Shown one piece after another: positions 22,996 through 34,696 of a DNA stretch of 64,000 nt (position 1 is its first letter; every line of letters begins with the position of its first letter). The stretch lies in NCBI RefSeq assembly GCF_014201715.1, contig NZ_JACHFD010000001.1, positions 372,001-436,000 of the forward strand, in the 5' to 3' direction. Position numbers and translations under genes: made by a program. The notes beneath the pieces were generated by a model, which was not told the DNA's origin, ran no database searches, and saw nothing but the letters and a program-made list of their open reading frames with translations. The stretch is from Haloferula luteola. GTDB lineage: Bacteria > Verrucomicrobiota > Verrucomicrobiia > Verrucomicrobiales > Akkermansiaceae.

Positions 22996-23040
22996 GCGCC
23001 GACCCTAACCCCGCCTCGACGCCTGAGAAGCGCCAAGTTT

Positions 23041-23059
23041 GCCGGGATGGCATCCCGGC
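23041..23059. promoter_or_regulatory. 8-bp inverted repeat in the divergent exonuclease/ecsC-like promoter region
   Basis: GCCGGGAT-GGC-ATCCCGGC forms a perfect 8-bp hairpin or operator in the 91-bp gap between the divergent exonuclease and EcsC-like genes. A TATGAAT stretch preceded by TGG (23068-23077 region), 15-20 bp before the EcsC-like start, could be an extended -10 box. Function unproven. Confidence 0.3.
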
Positions 23060-23086
23060 CATCCCGTGGTATGAATTCCCCATCTC

Positions 23087-23707
23087 ATGTCCGAATCCCC
23101 TCCAGACAAGACCGCTCACGCCGTCACCCAAGCCATTCTCGGCTTCCTCGGCCAGGTGCCCGAGAGCCAACGTGAACTTGCAGCCTCACCCGCAGATGCC
23201 GCCCGCGCCATCGCCAATGCCGCGGCTTCACGAGCCGCCACCACGGCAGGCGTTCTTGCCCTCCCTCCCGGCCCCCTCGCCTGGGCCACCATTCTCCCCG
23301 AAATCATCGCGGTTTGGAAAATCCAGGCCCAGATGGTCTCCGATATCGCCGCCGTCTTCGGCAAACGCGCCCAACTCTCCCAAGAACAAATGCTCTATTG
23401 CCTGTTCCGGCACACCGCCGCACAGGCCGTGCGCGACCTCGTCGTCCGCGTCGGCGAACGCTATCTCATCAAGAAAGCCAGCTACAAAACACTTGAGAGC
23501 GCGGCCCGAAAAGTCGGCCTCAAGATCACCCAGCGCGCCGTGGGCAAAGGCATTTCACGCCTCATCCCCCTCCTCAGCGCCGTCGGGGTGGGTGGCTACG
23601 CATGGTATGACACCGCTCGGGTCGCCAAAACCGCCATCGATCTCTTCCAAAGCCCCATCGATCACGAACTGCCCGCGCCAGAGCCTCCGGTATCTCTACC
23701 TAACTGA
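23087..23707 (+). CDS. EcsC family protein
   Basis: 206 aa. Recognised by the EcsC-family segment 'ATTAGVLALPPGPLAWATI' followed by 'WKIQAQMVSDIAAVFGK'. The two hydrophobic stretches (about residues 52-75 and 165-185, 'LIPLLSAVGVGGYAWYD') suggest membrane association. The molecular role of these proteins is not known. Its 3' end overlaps the end of the large ATPase gene on the other strand by 46 bp. Given the neighbourhood it may work with the ATPase-flotillin module. Confidence 0.8.
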   Translation: MSESPPDKTAHAVTQAILGFLGQVPESQRELAASPADAARAIANAAASRAATTAGVLALPPGPLAWATILPEIIAVWKIQAQMVSDIAAVFGKRAQLSQEQMLYCLFRHTAAQAVRDLVVRVGERYLIKKASYKTLESAARKVGLKITQRAVGKGISRLIPLLSAVGVGGYAWYDTARVAKTAIDLFQSPIDHELPAPEPPVSLPN

Positions 23708-26700
23708 CGGATCTCCGGCTGCACATCCAGCGGCGAACGGCTCTTTTCCACCTTCTCAATCGTCCCCTCCTCGTCCTGCACCGGCACCACTTTGATATCC
23801 ACCTCCACCGGCACCGCGCGCAATCCCGCGATGATCTCCTGCAACCGCTGCACCGTCTCTTCTCCCAAGGTCTGGGGCTTCGCATAATGGGCCCCTGCTG
23901 CTGCAATCCCCTGATGAATGGCAGATAAGCCGTCGTTGAACTGCGTCAGCTGCGCCACCACCCGAGCCACCGGATCGGTCTCCCCCGCTCCGCCGAGCAA
24001 CTTATGGCGCACAAAATCTTTTTTGATCTGCTCCCACCGGACTTCCTGCGCCCCCTGGAGCCGACCTTCCAGCTCATAAAACTTCAGCAAATTCGCCTCG
24101 GCTGCCTTGGTGAGGTTCTGGGACTCGCTGCGATAGTGATCGTCGACCCGCTGCTGCACCTCCTCAGCCGTCATCAATGGCAACACCTTCTCGGCGATCC
24201 GATTCATGTTGCGGTAAGAGCCCTGCAGCTTGAACGAAGGTTCCGTTCGATAGGCATCTTCCTGCGCGGCACTCCGGATATACTCCAGATTCACCCGCAA
24301 AATCGTATCCCTCACGGCCAGCAAATGGCGAGTGACTGTGACCATTTCATCGATCTCCGCCGGCGTGTAGTTTCCCTCGAAATCCGCTCCGTCCCTGCTC
24401 CCCGTCTCCGCCATCCGAATCACCGTCAGCACATCCTTCTGTGAGCGACTCGCCAGCCGCGACAAAGCCGCATTGGAGGTCAGAGCATTCTCAATGTAGC
24501 TCGATTTGAACGCCGCTTCATGACCACCCAGAATATCCCCGAGATTGTAGGTATCCGCTCGGTTCGCCAACATGTCTGGGATCTGGAACTTTCCACCGCT
24601 CTCCGTGTAGGGGTTGCCAGCCATCACCACCGCCACCTTCCGTCCCCGCAAATCATAGGTTCGGGCACGCCCTTTCCAAACCCCCTCGATCTTCCTTTGG
24701 GCATCGCAAAGGCTGATGAACTTCTGCAAGAACTCCGGATTCGTGTGCTGAATGTCGTCCACATACAACATCACGTTGTCGCCCATCTCCAATGCCAAAT
24801 TGAGCCGAATGACCTCCTCTCGAGCCGCCGCGTTAGGGGCCTCCGTGGGGTCCAGCGACAACACATGGTGCCCCAGCGCCGGACCATTGATCTTCACAAA
24901 AGTCAGCCCGAGACGATCGGCCACGTACTCCATCAAAGTCGTCTTTCCGTAACCCGGCGGAGAAATCAGCAGGAGCATGCCCATCCGGTCTGTCCGGGTA
25001 TCAACTCCTGCCGTTCCCAACTGCTTGGCCAAATTGTCGCCAATCAGAGGCAGATACACCTCGTCGATCAACCGGTTCCGCACAAACGCACTCATCACCT
25101 TCGGCTTGAACTCGTCCAACCGCATCCCACTCCGCTTCTCGTGGATCATCCGCTGCTTCATGGCCGACAACTCACGAAACGCCACCGCAACCGTCGCCTC
25201 GTGCCGCGAAAGGCGATCCAAAAACTCGCTATAGTGCACCGCCAAACGCCCACCTTCGATTCTCGCATGACCTGAACGCAGACCGTCGACCTCCACCGTC
25301 AACACGATCGTCTGAACCGACCTTTGCTCAAATCCGCCTCGGGCCAAATGGGCGGATGCCTCATCAATGACGGCATCCCGCAAGGCAACTGGCGTGCTTT
25401 CCAACACCCCCTCGCTGCTCGCCTGGAAACCGCTCAGCCAATCTCGCACCACCTCGAATCGACCTTCCGGAGGAAGCCCCGCCATCGCATCCGCAAACGC
25501 TCCTTCGGCCCGCTTTGCCACCAAAGCATGCTCAAATCCCCGCACCAACTCTGCGGCAGAAGCCGATACCACAAACCCGCCCCCATGCGACAACTCCGCA
25601 ACCAAATAGTCGACCACCTGGCTCTGATGTTCCGTCACTGAGGCTAACTCCGCGAACCAACCACTCTCTTCCAGCCACCGCCCCAGGCCCCTCTGCAACT
25701 TCCCTCGCCACCTCTCAATGTCCCCCCCTTCCCGGAACCACATCCGACGTTTCCCGTAGCTCGCCAACTGCCCCGCCAACATCAACTTGGCAGAATCCTC
25801 CCAACAATCCCAAAACAAGATTCCCGCGGCGCGCGCCCGCGGACCGAAGCGCAGCAAGCCCGCCTCCTCATGCACCGGCAACAGCGCTTCCAACAACTTG
25901 GCGGCATCCTCATCGTGCACCCCTTTGGTGTATCCCTCCGCATATCGCGGCTGCATGAACGCCTGAACCTCCTGCAACAGATCCTCCCGATCGACCCGAC
26001 CCGACCGAAGAAACTGCCACGCCAAATACTCCACCCGTGCCACTTCTGGCCCCTCGCTCGGCACCTCCAAATCCCAAGCCTCACGCGTCGCCAAAAATGC
26101 AGGATCCTCGATTCGCTCGAAATACTTCGTCCCAGCCAAATGGAACGCCATGCCATCCTCAAACGGAACAATCGTCGGCTCAAGCGGCTGCGTATTCACG
26201 CTAAAGGCATGCTTCCCGAAGCGCAGCACATTCTGCCCGTCGACGAACAAATCCTTTTTGTCCTTCAGCTGCCTCACGCCATCCTCGCGCAAAGTCTTTA
26301 GACGCGTTTGCAGATCGTCCGCCTTCACCGGATCGCCCAATCCGCTCAGCTGCGCCACGATATCCCGCACCTTTTCGATCATCGGGTCCGTCGCAAAATA
26401 ACTGTGGACCTCCTCGATCTCCTTGAATCCCGCCAATCGATTGCGAATCCCATTGAGAATTCGCTCCGCGCTCTTGAAGAGAGCTCCAGCCCGCTTTTGG
26501 CGGGCCTCCATCAACTGCGTCCGGCGCCCTTCAAAAGCATCGTAAATCTCCTCCCGGCGCGCAGCCAACTGCAGGATGTATTCATCGAACTCCGAAAATC
26601 GCCCTTCCAACTCTTCCACCTGGACCATCAACCGCGTCAGCGATTCGTCACAGCGTTCCGGCGTGTCACACAGATCGAGATAGTTCGCCAGCGCTTGCGA

Positions 26701-28785
26701 AAGCAGCTTCATCTGAGCTGAAAACTGCGCCTCACCCTCACCCCGCGCCAACTCCTTGCGCCGATTCCGCAGCCCCCCACGCGTTCCATTCAGCTTCGCG
26801 TAGAGTGCCGAAATCCGCTCGATGATCGCGGTCGTCTGCGTGGCATCCGCAATCTTCAGTCCGCCGACGATTTCAATCAGCATCTCCAACTCTCCTGCCG
26901 AGCGATCCAGTGCTGCACCCACCTCGTCGGCTTCCGTCACCTTGCCAATTCGATCCAGGCCCATTTCTTGGACCTCGATCGCCTCTGCATAGGAACGCAG
27001 CGAATCCTCTCCCAGCAGAAAATCCACCGTCCTTTGTGATGTCGCCGCCGTCGCCGCCACCACCTCCTTCTCCAGATCCTCCACCACCTGCGGATCGGTG
27101 TAACGCACCTCACCCAAAGCCATGATCTCGCCCCGCAGCTTGCGAAGGGTCGACAGATGTTCCACCAGCGCCTTCAACTCCGCACCCGGAGCCGTTTCCG
27201 CCGCGCGCACCGCGACTCCGACCGCCGCGCGCACCCCAGCGGTCCGCTCCGTCGCCGTTTCGCGCAATCTCTGCACCTTTTCAAACTCACCGATAGCCGA
27301 CTCCGCGGCCTTTTTGATCTCCCGCAGAGGACCTGCCAGAGACCCGCATTCCTCACGGTCCAACCAAAAGTAGGTATCCAGAAGATCTCCCGCCCGCTTT
27401 GCCAAATCGAGATACAGTCCCGAAAACGAATCATCCTTTTGCAGCAGCGTCAGCAATTCCCGGGACTCCGCCATCCCCCGTACCAGCTCGGCATTGCCGA
27501 TCTTGAACAAATACGAAGAAGGATCCGCCGCACAGGCCGCTGCCGCCTCGTCATCCAAATACGGCGTTTGCCAGATTTGCAGGGAATGATGCTTCTGCGG
27601 CTGGCCATCGGTCCGGAACAACACCAATTCCCCATCGCCAAATAGCGAGAACCCGGAACACAAGATCGGGGTGTCCACCCCCTGCTGAATCCGGTTGTAA
27701 GAAAGGAGCACGTACTCCCCGTTCGGCCGATTGTAGAACGAGAACAGCACGTCTTCACCATTCGAAGAGGCCACCCGGCGTTCGAAGCGCATGTCAACTA
27801 GACCGTGGTCGAACGTCTTCAACTCGCCACTCTGCAACAGGTAGCCATTGGCAAAAACGATCCCGTGATCGTCCGGAAGCAGCACGCACGAATCTCCAAT
27901 CGCGTCCAGCCGGTGCACCGTTCTCGTCTTCTCGTTGAAGACCAAATAACGATGCAGGGACTCCCGGTAAGGAAGCACTTTCAACAGAATCAACGACCCT
28001 ACACAGGCGTAGAAAATTTCCGCATCATCGAGCGTCTGATCGCTCTCTGTGACGGGCTCGGCGTAGATCCCTTCCCCCGACTCCGTATTGTCCTCCACCT
28101 TCACCGTGAGGTCACCCCCGACGGTCTCGATGAACACTCGGTCCTCGATCGAAATGTGCGGGTGCAATCCCGACCGGTGCATGCCTCGATGCGCCCGTGT
28201 CCATTCGAACTCATGCTGTTTCGGATAGACATACTCATGGTCGAATCGACTGCCCACGTATTCCAGTCCGTCCGCCGTCATCCGCCACTTGAAAACCTTG
28301 ATGTCACTCAACGTCTTCCCGGCCCGCATCGCCAAAAACAGATGCGGACCAATCACCAGGAATTTCTGAAATACCGTTTCCCGGTAATACTTGTAAAGAT
28401 CGGTGAAATCCGCCGTGAACCGCGGATCATCGAGCACCTCAGTAACCGGTATCGCCGTGAATGCCTTGGTCTCCGGGTTGAAATCGTAAACCGAGAAGAC
28501 GTCCTGCACCTCCGTCGTCTGCTTCAGTCCGAACTGAATATTGTAGCCGAACAGAAAGCGATGCTTCCCCACCGTCACCAAATCACGGGCCACACAATTG
28601 TGCTCCGTCGCGATCCTCTCCGTTCCTAACAAGGCCGTCTGCACCCCGCCAAAAACAGCGAGTCGCTCGGTATTCAAACGGTCCAGAGAAGCACGCAGCG
28701 CACTCCCGTGTTTCTCCAAGCGGGCGCGAATCACCTCATAGGCTCCGCCCTCAAGTTGATCGGGTATTGAGTTCTCCTCAGCCAT
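23662..28785 (-). CDS. Giant AAA+ ATPase of the DUF3686 ('DNA repair ATPase') family
   Basis: 1707 aa. Residues about 1-440 are beta-rich with repeated Tyr/Phe strands, matching the DUF3686 N-terminal region. About 450-800 is long coiled coil ('RLRETATERTAGVRAAVGV', 'LTRLMVQVEELEGRFSEF'). About 870-1190 is a second mixed domain. The AAA+ module follows: Walker A 'SPPGYGKTTLMEYVAD' (about 1272-1287), Walker B 'VMLYVDDIQHT' (about 1343), sensor-like 'VVMAGNPYTESGG'. The family is often named 'DNA repair ATPase' in databases, but I know of no direct evidence for that role. The flotillin and YqiJ-like genes follow upstream on the same strand, 232 bp away, suggesting membrane remodelling or stress. 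Confidence 0.85.
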   Translation of the reverse strand: MAEENSIPDQLEGGAYEVIRARLEKHGSALRASLDRLNTERLAVFGGVQTALLGTERIATEHNCVARDLVTVGKHRFLFGYNIQFGLKQTTEVQDVFSVYDFNPETKAFTAIPVTEVLDDPRFTADFTDLYKYYRETVFQKFLVIGPHLFLAMRAGKTLSDIKVFKWRMTADGLEYVGSRFDHEYVYPKQHEFEWTRAHRGMHRSGLHPHISIEDRVFIETVGGDLTVKVEDNTESGEGIYAEPVTESDQTLDDAEIFYACVGSLILLKVLPYRESLHRYLVFNEKTRTVHRLDAIGDSCVLLPDDHGIVFANGYLLQSGELKTFDHGLVDMRFERRVASSNGEDVLFSFYNRPNGEYVLLSYNRIQQGVDTPILCSGFSLFGDGELVLFRTDGQPQKHHSLQIWQTPYLDDEAAAACAADPSSYLFKIGNAELVRGMAESRELLTLLQKDDSFSGLYLDLAKRAGDLLDTYFWLDREECGSLAGPLREIKKAAESAIGEFEKVQRLRETATERTAGVRAAVGVAVRAAETAPGAELKALVEHLSTLRKLRGEIMALGEVRYTDPQVVEDLEKEVVAATAATSQRTVDFLLGEDSLRSYAEAIEVQEMGLDRIGKVTEADEVGAALDRSAGELEMLIEIVGGLKIADATQTTAIIERISALYAKLNGTRGGLRNRRKELARGEGEAQFSAQMKLLSQALANYLDLCDTPERCDESLTRLMVQVEELEGRFSEFDEYILQLAARREEIYDAFEGRRTQLMEARQKRAGALFKSAERILNGIRNRLAGFKEIEEVHSYFATDPMIEKVRDIVAQLSGLGDPVKADDLQTRLKTLREDGVRQLKDKKDLFVDGQNVLRFGKHAFSVNTQPLEPTIVPFEDGMAFHLAGTKYFERIEDPAFLATREAWDLEVPSEGPEVARVEYLAWQFLRSGRVDREDLLQEVQAFMQPRYAEGYTKGVHDEDAAKLLEALLPVHEEAGLLRFGPRARAAGILFWDCWEDSAKLMLAGQLASYGKRRMWFREGGDIERWRGKLQRGLGRWLEESGWFAELASVTEHQSQVVDYLVAELSHGGGFVVSASAAELVRGFEHALVAKRAEGAFADAMAGLPPEGRFEVVRDWLSGFQASSEGVLESTPVALRDAVIDEASAHLARGGFEQRSVQTIVLTVEVDGLRSGHARIEGGRLAVHYSEFLDRLSRHEATVAVAFRELSAMKQRMIHEKRSGMRLDEFKPKVMSAFVRNRLIDEVYLPLIGDNLAKQLGTAGVDTRTDRMGMLLLISPPGYGKTTLMEYVADRLGLTFVKINGPALGHHVLSLDPTEAPNAAAREEVIRLNLALEMGDNVMLYVDDIQHTNPEFLQKFISLCDAQRKIEGVWKGRARTYDLRGRKVAVVMAGNPYTESGGKFQIPDMLANRADTYNLGDILGGHEAAFKSSYIENALTSNAALSRLASRSQKDVLTVIRMAETGSRDGADFEGNYTPAEIDEMVTVTRHLLAVRDTILRVNLEYIRSAAQEDAYRTEPSFKLQGSYRNMNRIAEKVLPLMTAEEVQQRVDDHYRSESQNLTKAAEANLLKFYELEGRLQGAQEVRWEQIKKDFVRHKLLGGAGETDPVARVVAQLTQFNDGLSAIHQGIAAAGAHYAKPQTLGEETVQRLQEIIAGLRAVPVEVDIKVVPVQDEEGTIEKVEKSRSPLDVQPEIRQLGRDTGGSGAGSS

Positions 28786-29017
28786 GGGAATCGAGAATCA
28801 GGAATCAAACGTCGCTAAAAAACGACAAACTAGCATTTCGAAAATAGGACAGGCCCCACCGATCTCCCCCACGACGGATCGAGTGAATCCCTGCGAATTC
28901 CCTCAACTCTGGAGGCCACCGCCGATTTCAACGGGCAGCTGTGCAGAGAGTCTCGACAACCACAAGATCGCTCGGACCTCGCCACCGGTGGCACGACACC
29001 CCCTGCCATGATTGGGC

Positions 29018-31099
29018 TCATTTCAAGAGATCAGACGCCTGCGTCTCGGCGAGGTCGAAACGATCGGCGGCACCCAGGAAACGAAGCAACTTGCGGCGGG
29101 TTTCGCCACTGGCATCCACCAATAACTTGCCCAGAACCGCGCCCACGGTGAGGTCCTTCACATCTTCGGCCGTCACCCCGAACTGTCCCGCCCACTCGCG
29201 AAGCTGAGAACGGAAATAGTCGGGATCGCCATTGAAGAACGTCTCTTTCACATCGCGCAGCGTCTCGCTGTTCTCGACCAATCGATCCACTGCCTTGCCA
29301 CGAGCAATCGCTGAACTGATCTGATCGAAGAACTTGTTCTCGCCACCGATGATCTCGATTTTCGCCGACTTCATCGCCTCGCCCAACACCATAGCCTGAG
29401 CTTCCGCGATGTCCTTCTGGATGTGAATCTGCGCCAATTCGATCGCCTTGTCCTTCTCTAGATTCAGCTTGAACTCCTCGTGAGCCTGGCCGGCTTCCTC
29501 GAACAACTTCATCGCTTCCGCCTTCTTGTGGATTCCGTCGGCTTCGGCTTCCAGCTTCAGGCGCTGCACCTCGGCTTCAGCAGAACCCTGCTTTTGAGTC
29601 GCATCCGCCTTCGCCAGCATGACCTCCGCCTCGCCGATTCCCACCGCTGCCGATTCCTTGGTGGTCGCCTCTGCAAGGAGCTTTTTGGCCACCGCCTCTT
29701 TCTCGCTTGCCGCCTGTTCGGCCTCGGCGATCACGATCCGCTCTTCCGCCTTCAGCTCGGCAGCCTTGCGCGCGGCTTCGGCAGCCTTGACCTCCTCGTA
29801 AACCCGCTGATCGGCGGCCAACTCGGCGGCCTGCTTCACCGCCTCCGCCTCCTTCACCCGGCGAATCACCTCCTCCTGCGCCACCGCCTCGGCCAAGGTC
29901 ACCTTGACCTGCTTTTCCCGATCGGCACCAGCAAACGCTTCGGTGTCCTTGATCCGCTCTTGCTCGATGACCACGAGCTTCTCCACCGCCACGCGCTCCT
30001 TGATCACATCCTGAATCGCCTTCCGCTCGACTTCGACTGCCTTTTCCTTGTCGATATCCTTGAGAGTCGTCAGCCGCTCGCGCTCGATCGACTCGAGTTG
30101 CTGGTCTCGCTTCACTCGCTCCACTTCGACCGCATCCGTGCGCTCTTTATTGCGTTGGGCAACCAAGACCTGGCGTTGCTTGTTCTCCTCCGCGACCTGG
30201 ATTTCTTCCTCCGCGGCGATCCGGGCACGCTCGGATTTCTGGCGTTCCTCTTCACGAACTTTGGCCGTCTCGGCCTCTTCGCGAGCTCGTACGCTGTCGA
30301 CCTCCCGTTGCTGCTTCGCCTCCGTTTCCGCTAGCTGGCGTTCAAGTTCCAGAATCGCTTCCCGGGCCTCCACATCCTGTTGCTTGATCACCTTTTCTTT
30401 GTCCCGCTGAATGTGGTTCGCCAGCTTCGCTTGGGTCGCCGTCAGCTCGGTGATCTTCTTGATCCCCTCAGCATCGAGAATGTTGTCGGGATCCAGTGAC
30501 TCAATCGGCGTCTGTTCCAGGAAATCAATGGCGGCGTCATCAAGCACGAATCCATTCAAATCCGTGCCGATCACCTTCAAGATTTCGTCCCGGAAGGTAT
30601 CGCGATCTTCATAGAGCTGCGTGAATTCGAAGCGCTTGCCGACCGTCTTCAATGCCTCGGAGAATTTAGCATCGAACAACTCACGAATCGCATCCTGCGA
30701 GCTTGCTCGCTCGCAACCCACCGATTGCGCCACACGCAGCACATCTTCATCCGCGTGATTCACCCGAACGAAGAAGGCGACCTTGATATCCGCCCGCATG
30801 TTATCTTTGCAAATCAATCCATTGCGCCCCGTCCGATCGATCTCAATCCGCTTCAGGGAAATATCCATCGTTTCGAGCCGGTGAAAGACCGGGAAAACCA
30901 ACATCCCGTTGAAATTCACCATCGTCCCACCAAATCCGGTACGAATCAAAGCGGTGCCCTTCTTCACCTTTCGGTAAAGCATCGCATACACTCCGCTCAC
31001 CATCACCACCAAGCCGATCGCAATGGCGAGACACAGCGCGACGATTCCCAGCCACGGGGGAAGCTCAATCAGGGCAAAAAATGTCGAATTCAATTTCAT
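29018..31099 (-). CDS. Flotillin-like SPFH/Band-7 protein
   Basis: 693 aa. An N-terminal membrane anchor (residues 14-40, 'PPWLGIVALCLAIAIGLVV') is followed by the SPFH domain (about 45-215, 'GTALIRTGFGGTMVNFNGM' at its start). A very long Ala/Glu/Lys/Arg coiled coil runs from about 225 to 600, including the flotillin-type 'EAEVQRLKLEAEADGI' repeats. The C-terminal 90 residues are globular. It resembles E. coli YqiK more than eukaryotic flotillin because the anchor is N-terminal. Its start overlaps the stop of the YqiJ-like gene by 4 bp (ATGA), so the pair is translationally coupled. Confidence 0.9.
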   Translation of the reverse strand: MKLNSTFFALIELPPWLGIVALCLAIAIGLVVMVSGVYAMLYRKVKKGTALIRTGFGGTMVNFNGMLVFPVFHRLETMDISLKRIEIDRTGRNGLICKDNMRADIKVAFFVRVNHADEDVLRVAQSVGCERASSQDAIRELFDAKFSEALKTVGKRFEFTQLYEDRDTFRDEILKVIGTDLNGFVLDDAAIDFLEQTPIESLDPDNILDAEGIKKITELTATQAKLANHIQRDKEKVIKQQDVEAREAILELERQLAETEAKQQREVDSVRAREEAETAKVREEERQKSERARIAAEEEIQVAEENKQRQVLVAQRNKERTDAVEVERVKRDQQLESIERERLTTLKDIDKEKAVEVERKAIQDVIKERVAVEKLVVIEQERIKDTEAFAGADREKQVKVTLAEAVAQEEVIRRVKEAEAVKQAAELAADQRVYEEVKAAEAARKAAELKAEERIVIAEAEQAASEKEAVAKKLLAEATTKESAAVGIGEAEVMLAKADATQKQGSAEAEVQRLKLEAEADGIHKKAEAMKLFEEAGQAHEEFKLNLEKDKAIELAQIHIQKDIAEAQAMVLGEAMKSAKIEIIGGENKFFDQISSAIARGKAVDRLVENSETLRDVKETFFNGDPDYFRSQLREWAGQFGVTAEDVKDLTVGAVLGKLLVDASGETRRKLLRFLGAADRFDLAETQASDLLK

Positions 31100-31755
31100 G
31101 GGTTTTCAGGATCAGGTTGAACCAAGTAAGTGCCTCGGACCGGATCATGGTCCCGCACCACCACGCGTGTTCCGCGCGGAAGAGAAAGTTGTCCCGGTGC
31201 CAGCCGGGCATTGATCAGTAGTGGAGCCTCCGAATTCTGAACCTCCACTTGCCCGGAGTGCTCGTCACACTCACGGCTACGCACAAAGCCAATGCGACCA
31301 ATCACCGGCGCCGCCAGGCCCTCGGCTCCTCGAAGATTCGCAAACATCGGGCTCAAAAGGCGCGAGGTCAGCTTTGTCAGCGCCAACGCCGGCACCAAAC
31401 AGGCGAGCGCAATCCACCATGAGTCCGCGGCTCCCGGCACCTCCTCTTTCAAGGAATGGACCACCATCACCGCTCCCCATTCATAGACCAAAAGAAAGCT
31501 CAGTAGTGCCGCCACGGGAACCTGATCGCCGTGAAAGTAGCGGAACAAATAGCGCACCGTCCCTCCCAGCCATTCCCCACCGTCGCCCGAATCAAAGCCA
31601 CCTTCCCCGCCGTCAAAACTGAGGAAATCGAAATCCAGTGAGCCCAGCAGGCAACTCACCCAAAAAATCCCCATCGGAATCAGCATCAAGGTCAGGGGAA
31701 TCACCCCCGGACGCATTGCCAAATGCCAGATTTCCACAAACATGACGGTCGTCAT
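31096..31755 (-). CDS. YqiJ/NfeD-like membrane protein with C-terminal OB fold
   Basis: 219 aa. Three hydrophobic segments (about residues 15-40, 75-95, 110-130) are followed by a C-terminal soluble domain of about 70 aa ('VIGRIGFVRSRECDEHSGQ', 'LPRGTRVVVRDHDPVRGTY') with the NfeD-type OB-fold pattern. Such proteins are encoded next to flotillins (YqiJ-YqiK, YuaF-FloT) and act with them at the membrane. The overlap with the flotillin gene supports a complex. Confidence 0.85.
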   Translation of the reverse strand: MTTVMFVEIWHLAMRPGVIPLTLMLIPMGIFWVSCLLGSLDFDFLSFDGGEGGFDSGDGGEWLGGTVRYLFRYFHGDQVPVAALLSFLLVYEWGAVMVVHSLKEEVPGAADSWWIALACLVPALALTKLTSRLLSPMFANLRGAEGLAAPVIGRIGFVRSRECDEHSGQVEVQNSEAPLLINARLAPGQLSLPRGTRVVVRDHDPVRGTYLVQPDPENP

Positions 31756-31864
31756 CCCATCCCACCGAGCTGGAGATGACCACTACAAATCCTATCAGTC
31801 CTTCCAATCCTGACCCCTAAGCCACCGCCTCAAGCTCCCTACCCAGAAGCCCCTAAGGATACGG

Positions 31865-33490
31865 TTAGAGGTTTCTGAGAGAACGCGCCGCATCACTTCG
31901 GGATGCGAAGAACGCCGGTAGCCATGCAGCCATCGCACAGAGCAAAAAGGCCACCAGGCCAATCACCACCACCTCACTCGGATTCACGTGAGCCGGCAAG
32001 GTGGTAAAGCCCGTCAAATCGGCCCGGAACGGATCAAATCCGATGCCTCTGAGTACCATCTGAAGCTGCTCCCGCACTTGGATCACAAGCAACCCCACGG
32101 CGATCCCGATCACCGCTCCAAATGCGCCCAAAACCATCCCCTGATAGACAAAGACCCGAATGATCTGCCCGGGAGCCGCGCCCAGCGCCTTCATCACCCC
32201 AATCTCGCGGCGCTTTTGAATCGTCACCGTGAACATCACAGCCGTCATCGAAAAGGCCGAAACCAAAACGATAAAAGAAAGCACGAAATACATCATGATC
32301 CGCTGCTGCTCGATCAGCACTGAGAAATTCTTCATCACCTCGACATCCATCCACGGCTGAAGATACCAGCCGGGCTCCTGAATCCCATCCGCCAATCGCT
32401 GCGACACCTCGCGGGCTTGATACGGATCGTTCAATCGGATGCCGATCCCTTGAACTTGATCCCCCAACCCCGCCAACTCCTGCGCCAAGTGCAGCGGCAT
32501 GAACACATCCGGGGTCATCGCCATTTGTGAAGTCGCATACACGCCCACCACCACGGCCTCCTTGGGCAGCACGAATTGCTCGATGTTTTTCAGAGCCGCC
32601 GCATCCATTTTCTCAACGTCGGTCGTCTTCAGCTCATCGAGAATCTTCAAAAACTGCGCGGGTGAATCTGCACCGAGCTTCTGCACCCGATTCGCTTCAT
32701 CGTTGTCGGCCGCATCGAGCAAAGTCAGGGCATTGTAAACCACCTCCTCCTCTGCCTCCCGCGGACCCGAGTTCAGCATCTCCACCAAGGGTTCTGAAAT
32801 CGCATTCCAATCATCGGTGCTCAGCTGAGAACCTTCAGCGGTCACCTTCCATGAGGCATCCACCCTTGTCCGAATCTCTTCCAACTGTTGGGCATACGCC
32901 TCACGCAATGGAGGCTCCTTGGTCTTGCCAAACACCCGCTCCACCTCCTCCAGATTCCTCATGGTCAACAAGTTGATTGAGTCCCCCACCCCAATTCCAA
33001 ACTGCCCGGCAATGCGCGACGAAATCACCACCCGGTCGTCGATTCCCATGTCGGCCGAACTCTCCGGATAGGCATCGAGATCCAACATCGCCTTGAGCCC
33101 CTGAACCGCCGCTTCGCTCTCCGTATCAATCCCCTGAAATGTCCCGTAGAGACGCCGACCTTCGACGTCCATCATCATCGAATCCTGCACCACTGGCCCC
33201 GCTTCCGCCACTCCGTCGAACTGCTCGACCTCCTTCGCCATCGTCCGCCAATCGGCCAATCCCTGATACAAACCACCGGGCGCATATTCGAGCCGGATGT
33301 GGGGGATGAACCCGAGAAACCGGTTCTTCACCTCCCGCTCCATCCCGGAATACACCGACATCACCACCACCAGCGCCAGCACGCCCAACATCACACCGAT
33401 CACTGAAATCATCGCCACGACGGAAAGCATCGCCCGGCGCGGATTGAGGTAGCGCCAAGCGAGCATGAAACTGAACGAGCGTCGGGCCAT
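31865..33490 (-). CDS. LolC/LolE-like ABC transporter permease with a large periplasmic insert
   Basis: 541 aa, against roughly 400-415 for LolC/E. N-terminal 'FMLAWRYLNPRRAMLSVVAMI' and 'VIGVMLGVLALVVVMSVYSGM' form the first transmembrane segment (about 20-45), a large periplasmic MacB-type domain follows, and three C-terminal segments ('VLSFIVLVSAFSMTAVMFTV', 'VIGIAVGLLVIQV', 'VVVIGLVAFLLCAMAAWLPA') complete an FtsX-type permease. The extra length is a helical, acidic stretch at about residues 185-315. Its likely role is lipoprotein release from the inner membrane. The LolD ATPase is not adjacent. Confidence 0.88.
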   Translation of the reverse strand: MARRSFSFMLAWRYLNPRRAMLSVVAMISVIGVMLGVLALVVVMSVYSGMEREVKNRFLGFIPHIRLEYAPGGLYQGLADWRTMAKEVEQFDGVAEAGPVVQDSMMMDVEGRRLYGTFQGIDTESEAAVQGLKAMLDLDAYPESSADMGIDDRVVISSRIAGQFGIGVGDSINLLTMRNLEEVERVFGKTKEPPLREAYAQQLEEIRTRVDASWKVTAEGSQLSTDDWNAISEPLVEMLNSGPREAEEEVVYNALTLLDAADNDEANRVQKLGADSPAQFLKILDELKTTDVEKMDAAALKNIEQFVLPKEAVVVGVYATSQMAMTPDVFMPLHLAQELAGLGDQVQGIGIRLNDPYQAREVSQRLADGIQEPGWYLQPWMDVEVMKNFSVLIEQQRIMMYFVLSFIVLVSAFSMTAVMFTVTIQKRREIGVMKALGAAPGQIIRVFVYQGMVLGAFGAVIGIAVGLLVIQVREQLQMVLRGIGFDPFRADLTGFTTLPAHVNPSEVVVIGLVAFLLCAMAAWLPAFFASRSDAARSLRNL

Positions 33491-33529
33491 GCCCTCCCCT
33501 AGCCGCCCACCGGGACGGGCGCAAGTGCT

Positions 33530-34696
33530 TCACCCCAACTCCATCGCGACCGCCTTCAAATAGTGAGCTTCTGCGAAAGCCGCCGGGTGGTCCGGAGCAT
33601 GCCCTGCCGACCAAAGCTCCCGGCTTTCGCGCCCACTCCGCCGAACCTCCTCGCGAATCATGCCCAAAAACTCTCCCGCTCGCACGTGGGCCGAACAGGA
33701 CGCCGCCACCAAGACCCCCCCCGGTTTCAGACAGCGAATCGCTTGGGCATTGAGCGCGCGATAAGCTTTCAGAGCTCCCGCCTTGTCCCGCTCCCGTTTC
33801 GCCAGCGATGGTGGATCCGTTACAATCAAATCCCAGCGCTCCTGAGTCTCGCCCATCCAACGAAAAGCATCCGCCTGCACCCCAGTTCGAGGCACCGAGG
33901 AGAGCTCCGGGTTCAGTGCGAAATTCCGGTCAGCACTCTCCAACGCGTGGGCGCTGATATCGACATCCGTCACTCTGGATGCTCCCCCACGAGCTGCATG
34001 CACCGAGAATCCCCCGGAAAAACTGAACATATTCAATACATCGCGTCCTTTCGCCAGCTCACCGACGCGCGCTCGATTCTCCCTCTGATCCAAAAAGAAG
34101 CCGGTCTTCTGACCGTGCCGGACAGCCGCCTCGAAATGCAACCCCATCTCCTGAAAAACGACCACCTCGGGCCCGGTCTCTCCCACGAACCCTTCTTCGA
34201 TGCCCGACAAGTTCCGCGCGACTCGCCGGATCAGGAAAGTGGGCTGAAACACCTCACGCAGCACCCCTTCCATCTCGTCCCAACGAGAAATCCACGCCGC
34301 ACTGTAGAGCTTCACCACCAAGGTATCGCCATAGCGATCCACCACCAACCCAGGAAATCCCTCACTGTCCCCATTGATGCAGCGATAGCCATTGGTCTCG
34401 CCTGAAAAAAGCACCTCCCTCCGTGCCCGGCACTCTGCTGCCCGGGAAAGCCACCAGGACCGATCCAAACGAACCGGCTCCCCTCGATGCGCGATCCGCA
34501 AAGGTATCGGCGAATCCGGGTCCCAGAAACCCACCGCCAGAAACCGATCCTGGCGATCATAGACCACCGCCAATTCGCCTGCCTCACCCGACCGGTTGGT
34601 CGATTTCACCGAATCGGAAAACACCCACGGGTGCCCCGCTCGCACCGTCGCCTCCGCACGAGGAAAAAGCCGAACTTTCAGGGTGCTCTTCGCCAT
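33530..34696 (-). CDS. RlmI-like 23S rRNA cytosine methyltransferase family protein
   Basis: 388 aa from the ATG at 34696. An N-terminal PUA domain ('LFPRAEATVRAGHPWVFSD') is followed by an EEHEE-type middle part and a Rossmann methyltransferase: 'TGFFLDQRENRARVGEL', 'DVLNMFSFSGGFSVHAARGG' (SAM binding), 'VTDVDISAHALESADRN', 'LIVTDPPSLAKRERDK' (motif IV) and 'VLVAASCSAHVRAGEFL'. RlmI makes m5C1962 in 23S rRNA; related family members may differ in target. It sits 39 bp upstream of the LolC-like gene on the same strand. Confidence 0.88.
   Translation of the reverse strand: MAKSTLKVRLFPRAEATVRAGHPWVFSDSVKSTNRSGEAGELAVVYDRQDRFLAVGFWDPDSPIPLRIAHRGEPVRLDRSWWLSRAAECRARREVLFSGETNGYRCINGDSEGFPGLVVDRYGDTLVVKLYSAAWISRWDEMEGVLREVFQPTFLIRRVARNLSGIEEGFVGETGPEVVVFQEMGLHFEAAVRHGQKTGFFLDQRENRARVGELAKGRDVLNMFSFSGGFSVHAARGGASRVTDVDISAHALESADRNFALNPELSSVPRTGVQADAFRWMGETQERWDLIVTDPPSLAKRERDKAGALKAYRALNAQAIRCLKPGGVLVAASCSAHVRAGEFLGMIREEVRRSGRESRELWSAGHAPDHPAAFAEAHYLKAVAMELG

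Follow-up and report, generated by a model that had tools for sequence, protein, structure and literature searches.

The window analyzed here, a 64,000-nucleotide stretch of the Haloferula luteola genome (contig NZ_JACHFD010000001.1, positions 372,001 to 436,000), encodes a giant AAA+ ATPase of the DUF3686 type and raises the question of what such an ATPase works with. DUF3686 ATPases are annotated in other records as "DNA repair ATPase," and the gene in the window lies downstream of genes for a YqiJ/NfeD2-like membrane protein and a flotillin. An original prediction, made from the sequence of the window, grouped these three genes with a convergent EcsC-like gene as a possible membrane module, and all four open reading frames (ORFs) were found where it had placed them. 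The conclusion that we favor, and consider rather probable, is that the three minus-strand genes at 23662-31755 are one functional unit in which a membrane-anchored flotillin/YqiJ cage docks a dedicated, nonproteolytic AAA+ remodeling ATPase. The features of the proposed unit are as follows.

31096..31755, minus strand: YqiJ/NfeD2-like membrane protein of the DUF1449 type, 219 aa, gene at the head of the module
29018..31099, minus strand: flotillin (SPFH) protein, 693 aa
29027..29602, minus strand: coding part for the flotillin C-terminal region (residues ~500-691), the candidate ATPase docking region
23662..28785, minus strand: giant AAA+ ATPase (DUF3686, DUF7902, and AAA+), 1707 aa
27562..28644, minus strand: predicted beta-propeller of the ATPase, residues ~48-408 (AlphaFold and VIA-align)
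24061..25098, minus strand: AAA+ domain of the ATPase with a predicted MoxR-like fold, residues ~1230-1575 (VIA-align)

Conservation of the YqiJ-flotillin-ATPase gene order

Loci encoding the ATPase were drawn from a sample of genomes of the window's phylum, from plasmid records, and from a GTDB genome scan, giving 123 nonredundant loci, the genes of which were called with a simple ORF caller and then labeled by profile. Order was scored at the 99 loci for which 4.5 kb or more of sequence preceded the ATPase gene. A YqiJ gene followed by a flotillin gene was found upstream of the ATPase gene, on the same strand, at 88 of the 99, in a set that is rich in Verrucomicrobiota and in which loci are not independent. 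Flotillin was encoded near the ATPase at 94 of the 99, including loci with flotillin but no YqiJ upstream (L037, L132, and L134), loci with flotillin further off (L070 and L095), and one locus at which the YqiJ-flotillin pair was upstream on the opposite strand (L135). Record titles placed ATPase loci in about ten phyla, the taxa being Verrucomicrobiota, Kiritimatiellota, Planctomycetota, Bacteroidota, Desulfobacterota, Myxococcota, Chitinispirillaceae, Halanaerobiales, Actinomycetota, Deinococcota, and Pseudomonadota. The original prediction had proposed a check of this order in other genomes and had named random order as evidence against a module; the order found was not random. We conclude that the YqiJ-flotillin-ATPase order is conserved far beyond chance.

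Within the window, the YqiJ-like and flotillin genes overlap by 4 bp, and 232 bp separate flotillin from the ATPase. A scan of 23000-34000 for promoters and terminators returned sites that were no commoner than in shuffled sequence. A LolC/E-type permease gene (31865-33490) lay on the same strand 109 bp upstream of the YqiJ-like gene, and homologues of the permease were encoded close to the module in five loci of the same genus. Elsewhere, a gene of the GxxExxY family (TIGR04256, ~124 aa) was found near the ATPase at ten loci (L043, L050, L053, L054, L056, L058, L080, L082, L084, and L106) and stood exactly between flotillin and ATPase in several of them, a position occupied in the window only by the 232-bp gap. 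On plasmid pQBR103 (L033, 3986-17190), a single gene run comprised YjfI-PspA-rhomboid-DUF2491-DUF350-DUF1190-glutathionylspermidine synthase and YqiJ-flotillin-ATPase, which unites two operon groups kept separate in the passages of Ravi et al. that describe them (PMC11237479).

Co-occurrence of flotillin and ATPase in linked and unlinked genomes

Co-occurrence was scored in 388 genomes of the window's phylum, the Verrucomicrobiota, a placement that the nearest homologues also make probable. A module-type flotillin was defined as one scoring at least 490 bits. The ATPase was detected in 34 of the genomes, and a module-type flotillin was encoded by 33 of those 34 but by none of the 354 genomes that lacked the ATPase (Fisher p 4e-47, uncorrected for phylogeny). 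The next-best flotillins in the sample scored at most 226 bits. Moreover, in three genomes from three families (G086, G129, and G285), flotillin and ATPase were both present on different contigs, and the 4 to 9 kb 5′ of the ATPase held no flotillin; in G129 and G285, a YqiJ gene still adjoined the unlinked flotillin. Within the window's genus and family, the ATPase and module-type flotillin were gained or lost together, with neither present in G328, G216, and G255. The trees of the three proteins also agreed (r 0.81-0.86, against a null maximum of 0.28), an agreement to which shared species history contributes. That the parts of the trio persist together in genomes where the genes have come apart suggests a single machine.

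The flotillin C-terminal region

Single-sequence Pfam searches with the flotillin and the YqiJ-like protein gave no significant match, and neither the flotillin nor its profile found more than weak sequence matches in the PDB. Profiles built from the two families confirmed the identities. The flotillin family profile matched Escherichia coli YqiK (E 1.9e-74), with the match confined to its first 446 positions, and the YqiJ-like family profile matched E. coli YqiJ (E 4.6e-15). YqiJ_N was matched by 17 of the 47 members of the YqiJ-like family, and the YuaF structure 2k14 was matched only weakly (E 0.04). The YqiJ-like protein of the window is strongly hydrophobic in two segments, residues 18-36 and 81-99. 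The flotillin is built of one transmembrane (TM) segment (19-37), an SPFH domain, a long coiled coil, and the C-terminal region (~500-691). With its SPFH domain and a YqiJ/YuaF-like gene in the operon, the pair falls within the definition of an SPFH2 flotillin with an NfeD2 partner (PMC2636767).

The C-terminal region (~190 residues) was conserved in 38 diverse module flotillins and was carried by the unlinked flotillins of G086, G129, and G285. With a subprofile of the region (residues 500-693), E. coli YqiK and the flotillins of two ATPase-free PspA-YqiJ-flotillin operons (G128 and G119) all gave negative bits at E 4, and their similarity to the module flotillin was confined to the SPFH domain and the initial stretch of the coiled coil. 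The phylum sample also contained five ATPase-free flotillins, whose matches covered profile positions 4-453 only. The narrow end of the human flotillin cage is made up of the C-terminal parts of the protein (PMC11260169). From this distribution of sequences, we infer that the C-terminal region is plausibly the ATPase docking site, and we regard predicted docking there as the most useful prediction of this work. Natural controls for the ATPase-linked form are found at L190 (4323-7535) and again at L191 (4510-7783), each of which encodes PspA, YqiJ, and a short flotillin without the ATPase.

Architecture of the ATPase

Pfam matched the ATPase to DUF3686 (E 5.9e-183, residues 30-473), to DUF7902, and to AAA from residue 1271. 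The Walker A motif GYGKT (1278-1282), D1343 and D1344 (Walker B), the sensor N1391, R1409, and R1525 were invariant in 78 diverse homologues, which indicates selection for its function as an ATPase. AlphaFold models (mean pLDDT of 87.3 for the model that includes the beta-propeller and 83.5 for the other) predicted a beta-propeller (~48-408), coiled coils (~484-846), a helical middle, and the AAA+ domain (~1230-1575). By VIA-align, the predicted propeller best matched a WD40 propeller (Z 9.8, rmsd 4.7, 203 residues), with other propellers at Z ~8, and the AAA+ domain best matched CbbQ2 (Z 14.2, rmsd 4.0, 249 residues) and NorQ (Z 14.0), with dynein (Z 12.8) and ClpA (Z 12.2) close behind. No TM segment was found in the ATPase, no protease or peptidase family was found in Pfam and NCBIfam scans, and no DNA-binding family was found in the Pfam scan. 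We conclude that the AAA+ domain, as modeled, is probably MoxR-like, with NorQ and CbbQ as its nearest matches.

PspA and regulators near the module

A census of recurrent neighbors indicated that PspA and CesT/Tir are the commonest additional neighbors of the module. PspA was encoded upstream of it at 27 of the 99 loci, often with CesT/Tir, and a CesT/Tir gene was found at 16 loci. The window locus has neither a CesT/Tir nor a PspA gene and is thus not a full PSP-type operon. Among the window's relatives, we identified a divergent PspA-like family, here called A4, in which PspA_IM30 was matched by nine of nine members, weakly in the first. Strong A4 scores (at least 375 bits) occurred in 10 of the 388 genomes, all of them ATPase positive (Fisher 7e-12, uncorrected); two further genomes had marginal hits of at most 25 bits, and A4 was unlinked from the module in most genomes. 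This distribution supports the suggestion, made in the passages of Ravi et al. on these operons, that a short operon relies on a PspA gene located elsewhere. The window genome had no A4 and no PspA above cutoff, and G320, a single-contig genome of the window's genus, had no PspA match despite having the ATPase, flotillin, and YqiJ. A need for a PspA encoded elsewhere in every genome was rejected on the evidence of G320. We conclude that PspA is a frequent partner and not an obligate one.

In the window genome, L156 4634-5464 (G000:C22) encodes a weakly PspA/Snf7-like coiled coil directly upstream of genes for a substrate-binding-like protein and a membrane protein. A divergent helix-turn-helix (HTH) regulator, mostly with a C-terminal S24-like domain, was encoded next to CesT/Tir at 16 of 16 loci (L031, L104, L105, L108, L113, L115, L124-L126, L128-L130, L133, L136, L144, and L153). 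LexA-like self-cleavage of the Bacteroidota regulator was considered and is unlikely, as the residue apparently aligned to the S24 serine is mostly glutamate. A phage CII-like (CP76) HTH regulator lay at most ~500 bp from the start of the module, codirectional with PspA or divergent from YqiJ, at L044, L047, L055, L059, L066, L068, L078, L079, L094, and L114.

The EcsC-like neighbor

The remaining gene of the original prediction faces the ATPase gene and overlaps its 3′ end by 46 bp.

23087..23707, plus strand: EcsC-like protein, convergent neighbor judged to lie outside the module, 206 aa

The EcsC label was weak in Pfam (22.9 bits, against a cutoff of 30.4), and PADLOC gave a better match (PDC-S29, E 4.7e-11). 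The gene is real, with homologues 44-61% identical in 10 other genomes of the family and a codon-position GC like that of its neighbors. An EcsC-like gene lay beside the ATPase at 1 of the 123 loci. In G278 and G320, of the same genus, the downstream RNase H-like gene is shared with the window and no EcsC gene lies beside the ATPase, and the homologues in the 10 genomes sit elsewhere, some of them in genomes without a detected ATPase (for example, G328 and G255). EcsC was therefore rejected as part of the module, and we conclude that the EcsC-like gene is a chance neighbor. Thus, the membrane module first proposed stands for the ATPase, flotillin, and YqiJ, given their order and their co-occurrence when unlinked, and loses its fourth member.

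A possible flotillin-docked remodeling ATPase

Gene identities, gene order, co-occurrence of unlinked genes, AAA+ motifs, predicted folds, and the difference in flotillin C termini are supported directly by the analysis. In the mechanism that we favor, the flotillin and the YqiJ-like protein would probably assemble into an oligomeric ring or cage at the inner membrane, on its cytoplasmic side, by analogy with known SPFH-NfeD pairs. The soluble giant ATPase probably docks on the cage, plausibly via the flotillin C-terminal region, and the beta-propeller and long coiled coils may act as adaptor and spacer. Driven by ATP, the MoxR-like AAA+ ring would then act on membrane-associated proteins or PspA-type polymers, to remodel, assemble, or release them, perhaps in envelope stress or in service of a membrane complex. 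Precedents exist for the separate elements: the QmcA-YbbJ cage consists of 26 heterodimers, as cited in PMC13086221; HflKC cages hold AAA+ proteases, as described in PMC11260169; an SPFH protein recruits PspA to the membrane in Bacillus subtilis (PMC8581546); and MoxR proteins act as remodelers (PMC13036017). It is quite possible, though we would not yet call it probable, that the flotillins linked to this ATPase are a class apart, with a C-terminal domain that docks a dedicated, nonproteolytic MoxR-like AAA+ motor; such an SPFH cage would have a remodeling engine of its own, powered by ATP, and PspA-type polymers would be optional clients. The role of bacterial flotillins is not clear, and deleting them often has little visible effect (PMC13086221); if the proposal is true, a flotillin-bound dedicated ATPase would offer an assayable activity and a defined region to mutate, and a misleading "DNA repair ATPase" label would be corrected on a protein family of many phyla.

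Several observations weigh against a single functional unit. No flotillin was found near the ATPase at L072, L074, L075, L088, and L099, and the 232-bp gap 5′ of the ATPase in the window leaves room for separate transcription. One genome, G192 (91% complete), is the sole ATPase-positive genome without any flotillin match. A VWA partner is usual for MoxR-class ATPases (PMC13036017), and none was recognized among the recurrent neighbors, for which no VWA profile was searched. Finally, the pair can work alone: E. coli has YqiJ-YqiK and lacks the ATPase, which a DNA search with a Proteus homologue did not find there.

An alternative is that the ATPase acts on PspA/ESCRT-III-like polymers, much as Vps4 acts on ESCRT-III, with flotillin and YqiJ only bringing it to the membrane and the short operon relying on a remote PspA. 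The idea was suggested by Ravi et al. (PMC11237479), and both the PspA genes upstream of the module, often with CesT/Tir, and the restriction of strong, mostly unlinked A4 scores to ATPase-positive genomes are consistent with it. Nevertheless, G320 has the entire trio and no PspA match, the window genome has only the weakly PspA/Snf7-like coiled coil beside transporter-like genes (L156), and the ATPase-free PspA-YqiJ-flotillin operons at L190 and L191 indicate that PspA does not need the ATPase. We consider this explanation plausible but, on balance, unlikely.

The module could also be an anti-phage or conflict system, as might be suggested by its patchy distribution, some plasmid occurrences, the phage-repressor-like regulators adjacent to it in two lineages, and the PADLOC candidate match of the neighboring EcsC. 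We regard such a role as very improbable: PADLOC gave weak partial matches only for the ATPase and none for flotillin or YqiJ, the module was found in none of 50,697 phage records, its gene order is unusually stable for a defense island, and EcsC is unlinked from the ATPase at other loci. Least probable in our judgment is that the ATPase is a DNA repair enzyme, as annotated, with an incidental flotillin neighbor. The Pfam description of DUF3686 and the record annotations say as much, the AAA+ fold has a resemblance to RuvB and MCM as well, and the long coiled coils recall SMC-type proteins, but full alignment puts the protein remodelers CbbQ and NorQ closest to the AAA+ fold, the ATPase has no match to a DNA-binding family in Pfam, and its linkage and co-occurrence are with membrane proteins. 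Moreover, its recurrent neighbors are PspA, CesT/Tir chaperones, and regulators, with no DNA repair family identified among them, which bears out the claim of the original prediction that context does not support the label.

Relation to known systems

The operon type is already known by prediction, and the window is a new member of its short form. Ravi et al. (2024; PMC11237479), in the passages describing these operons, report CesT/Tir-PspA with band-7/flotillin, YqiJ, and AAA+ genes and a widespread abbreviated form without PspA. The window has the same three genes and lacks the CesT/Tir-PspA part of the full operon. Consistent with the abbreviated form, its flotillin is a YqiK homologue with one TM segment, a YqiJ/YuaF-type TM protein is encoded in the operon, and the AAA+ ATPase, by AlphaFold and VIA-align, has a fused beta-propeller and coiled coil. 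The AAA+ ATPase of Ravi et al. likewise has a beta-propeller and coiled coils; no paper in the literature library searched names DUF3686. Absent from the passages in question, and added here, are statistics on gene order, co-occurrence of unlinked genes, the C-terminal signature of the flotillin, and the class of the AAA+ domain. New in this work are the quantification of gene order, the C-terminal signature, the MoxR-like AAA+ assignment, the lineage-specific regulators, and the mostly unlinked A4 family, confined to ATPase-positive genomes at strong scores.

Four other systems share parts of this design. E. coli YqiJ-YqiK (SPFH2-NfeD2) is the same pair in the same order, with homology that spans the SPFH domain and the opening part of the coiled coil, but it has no ATPase and YqiK lacks the C-terminal region of module flotillins. 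The QmcA-YbbJ cage likewise joins an SPFH protein to an NfeD-type partner on the cytoplasmic side, but its SPFH protein is of another subfamily and the solved cage has no ATPase. HflK/HflC-FtsH also pairs an SPFH protein with an AAA+ motor, but FtsH is a membrane-bound protease and the DUF3686 ATPase has neither a TM segment nor a protease domain match. The closest AAA+ fold is that of the MoxR ATPases (NorQ, CbbQ, and RavA; Z ~14), which are small and typically paired with VWA proteins, whereas the ATPase of the window has more than 1200 extra residues and is paired with a flotillin.

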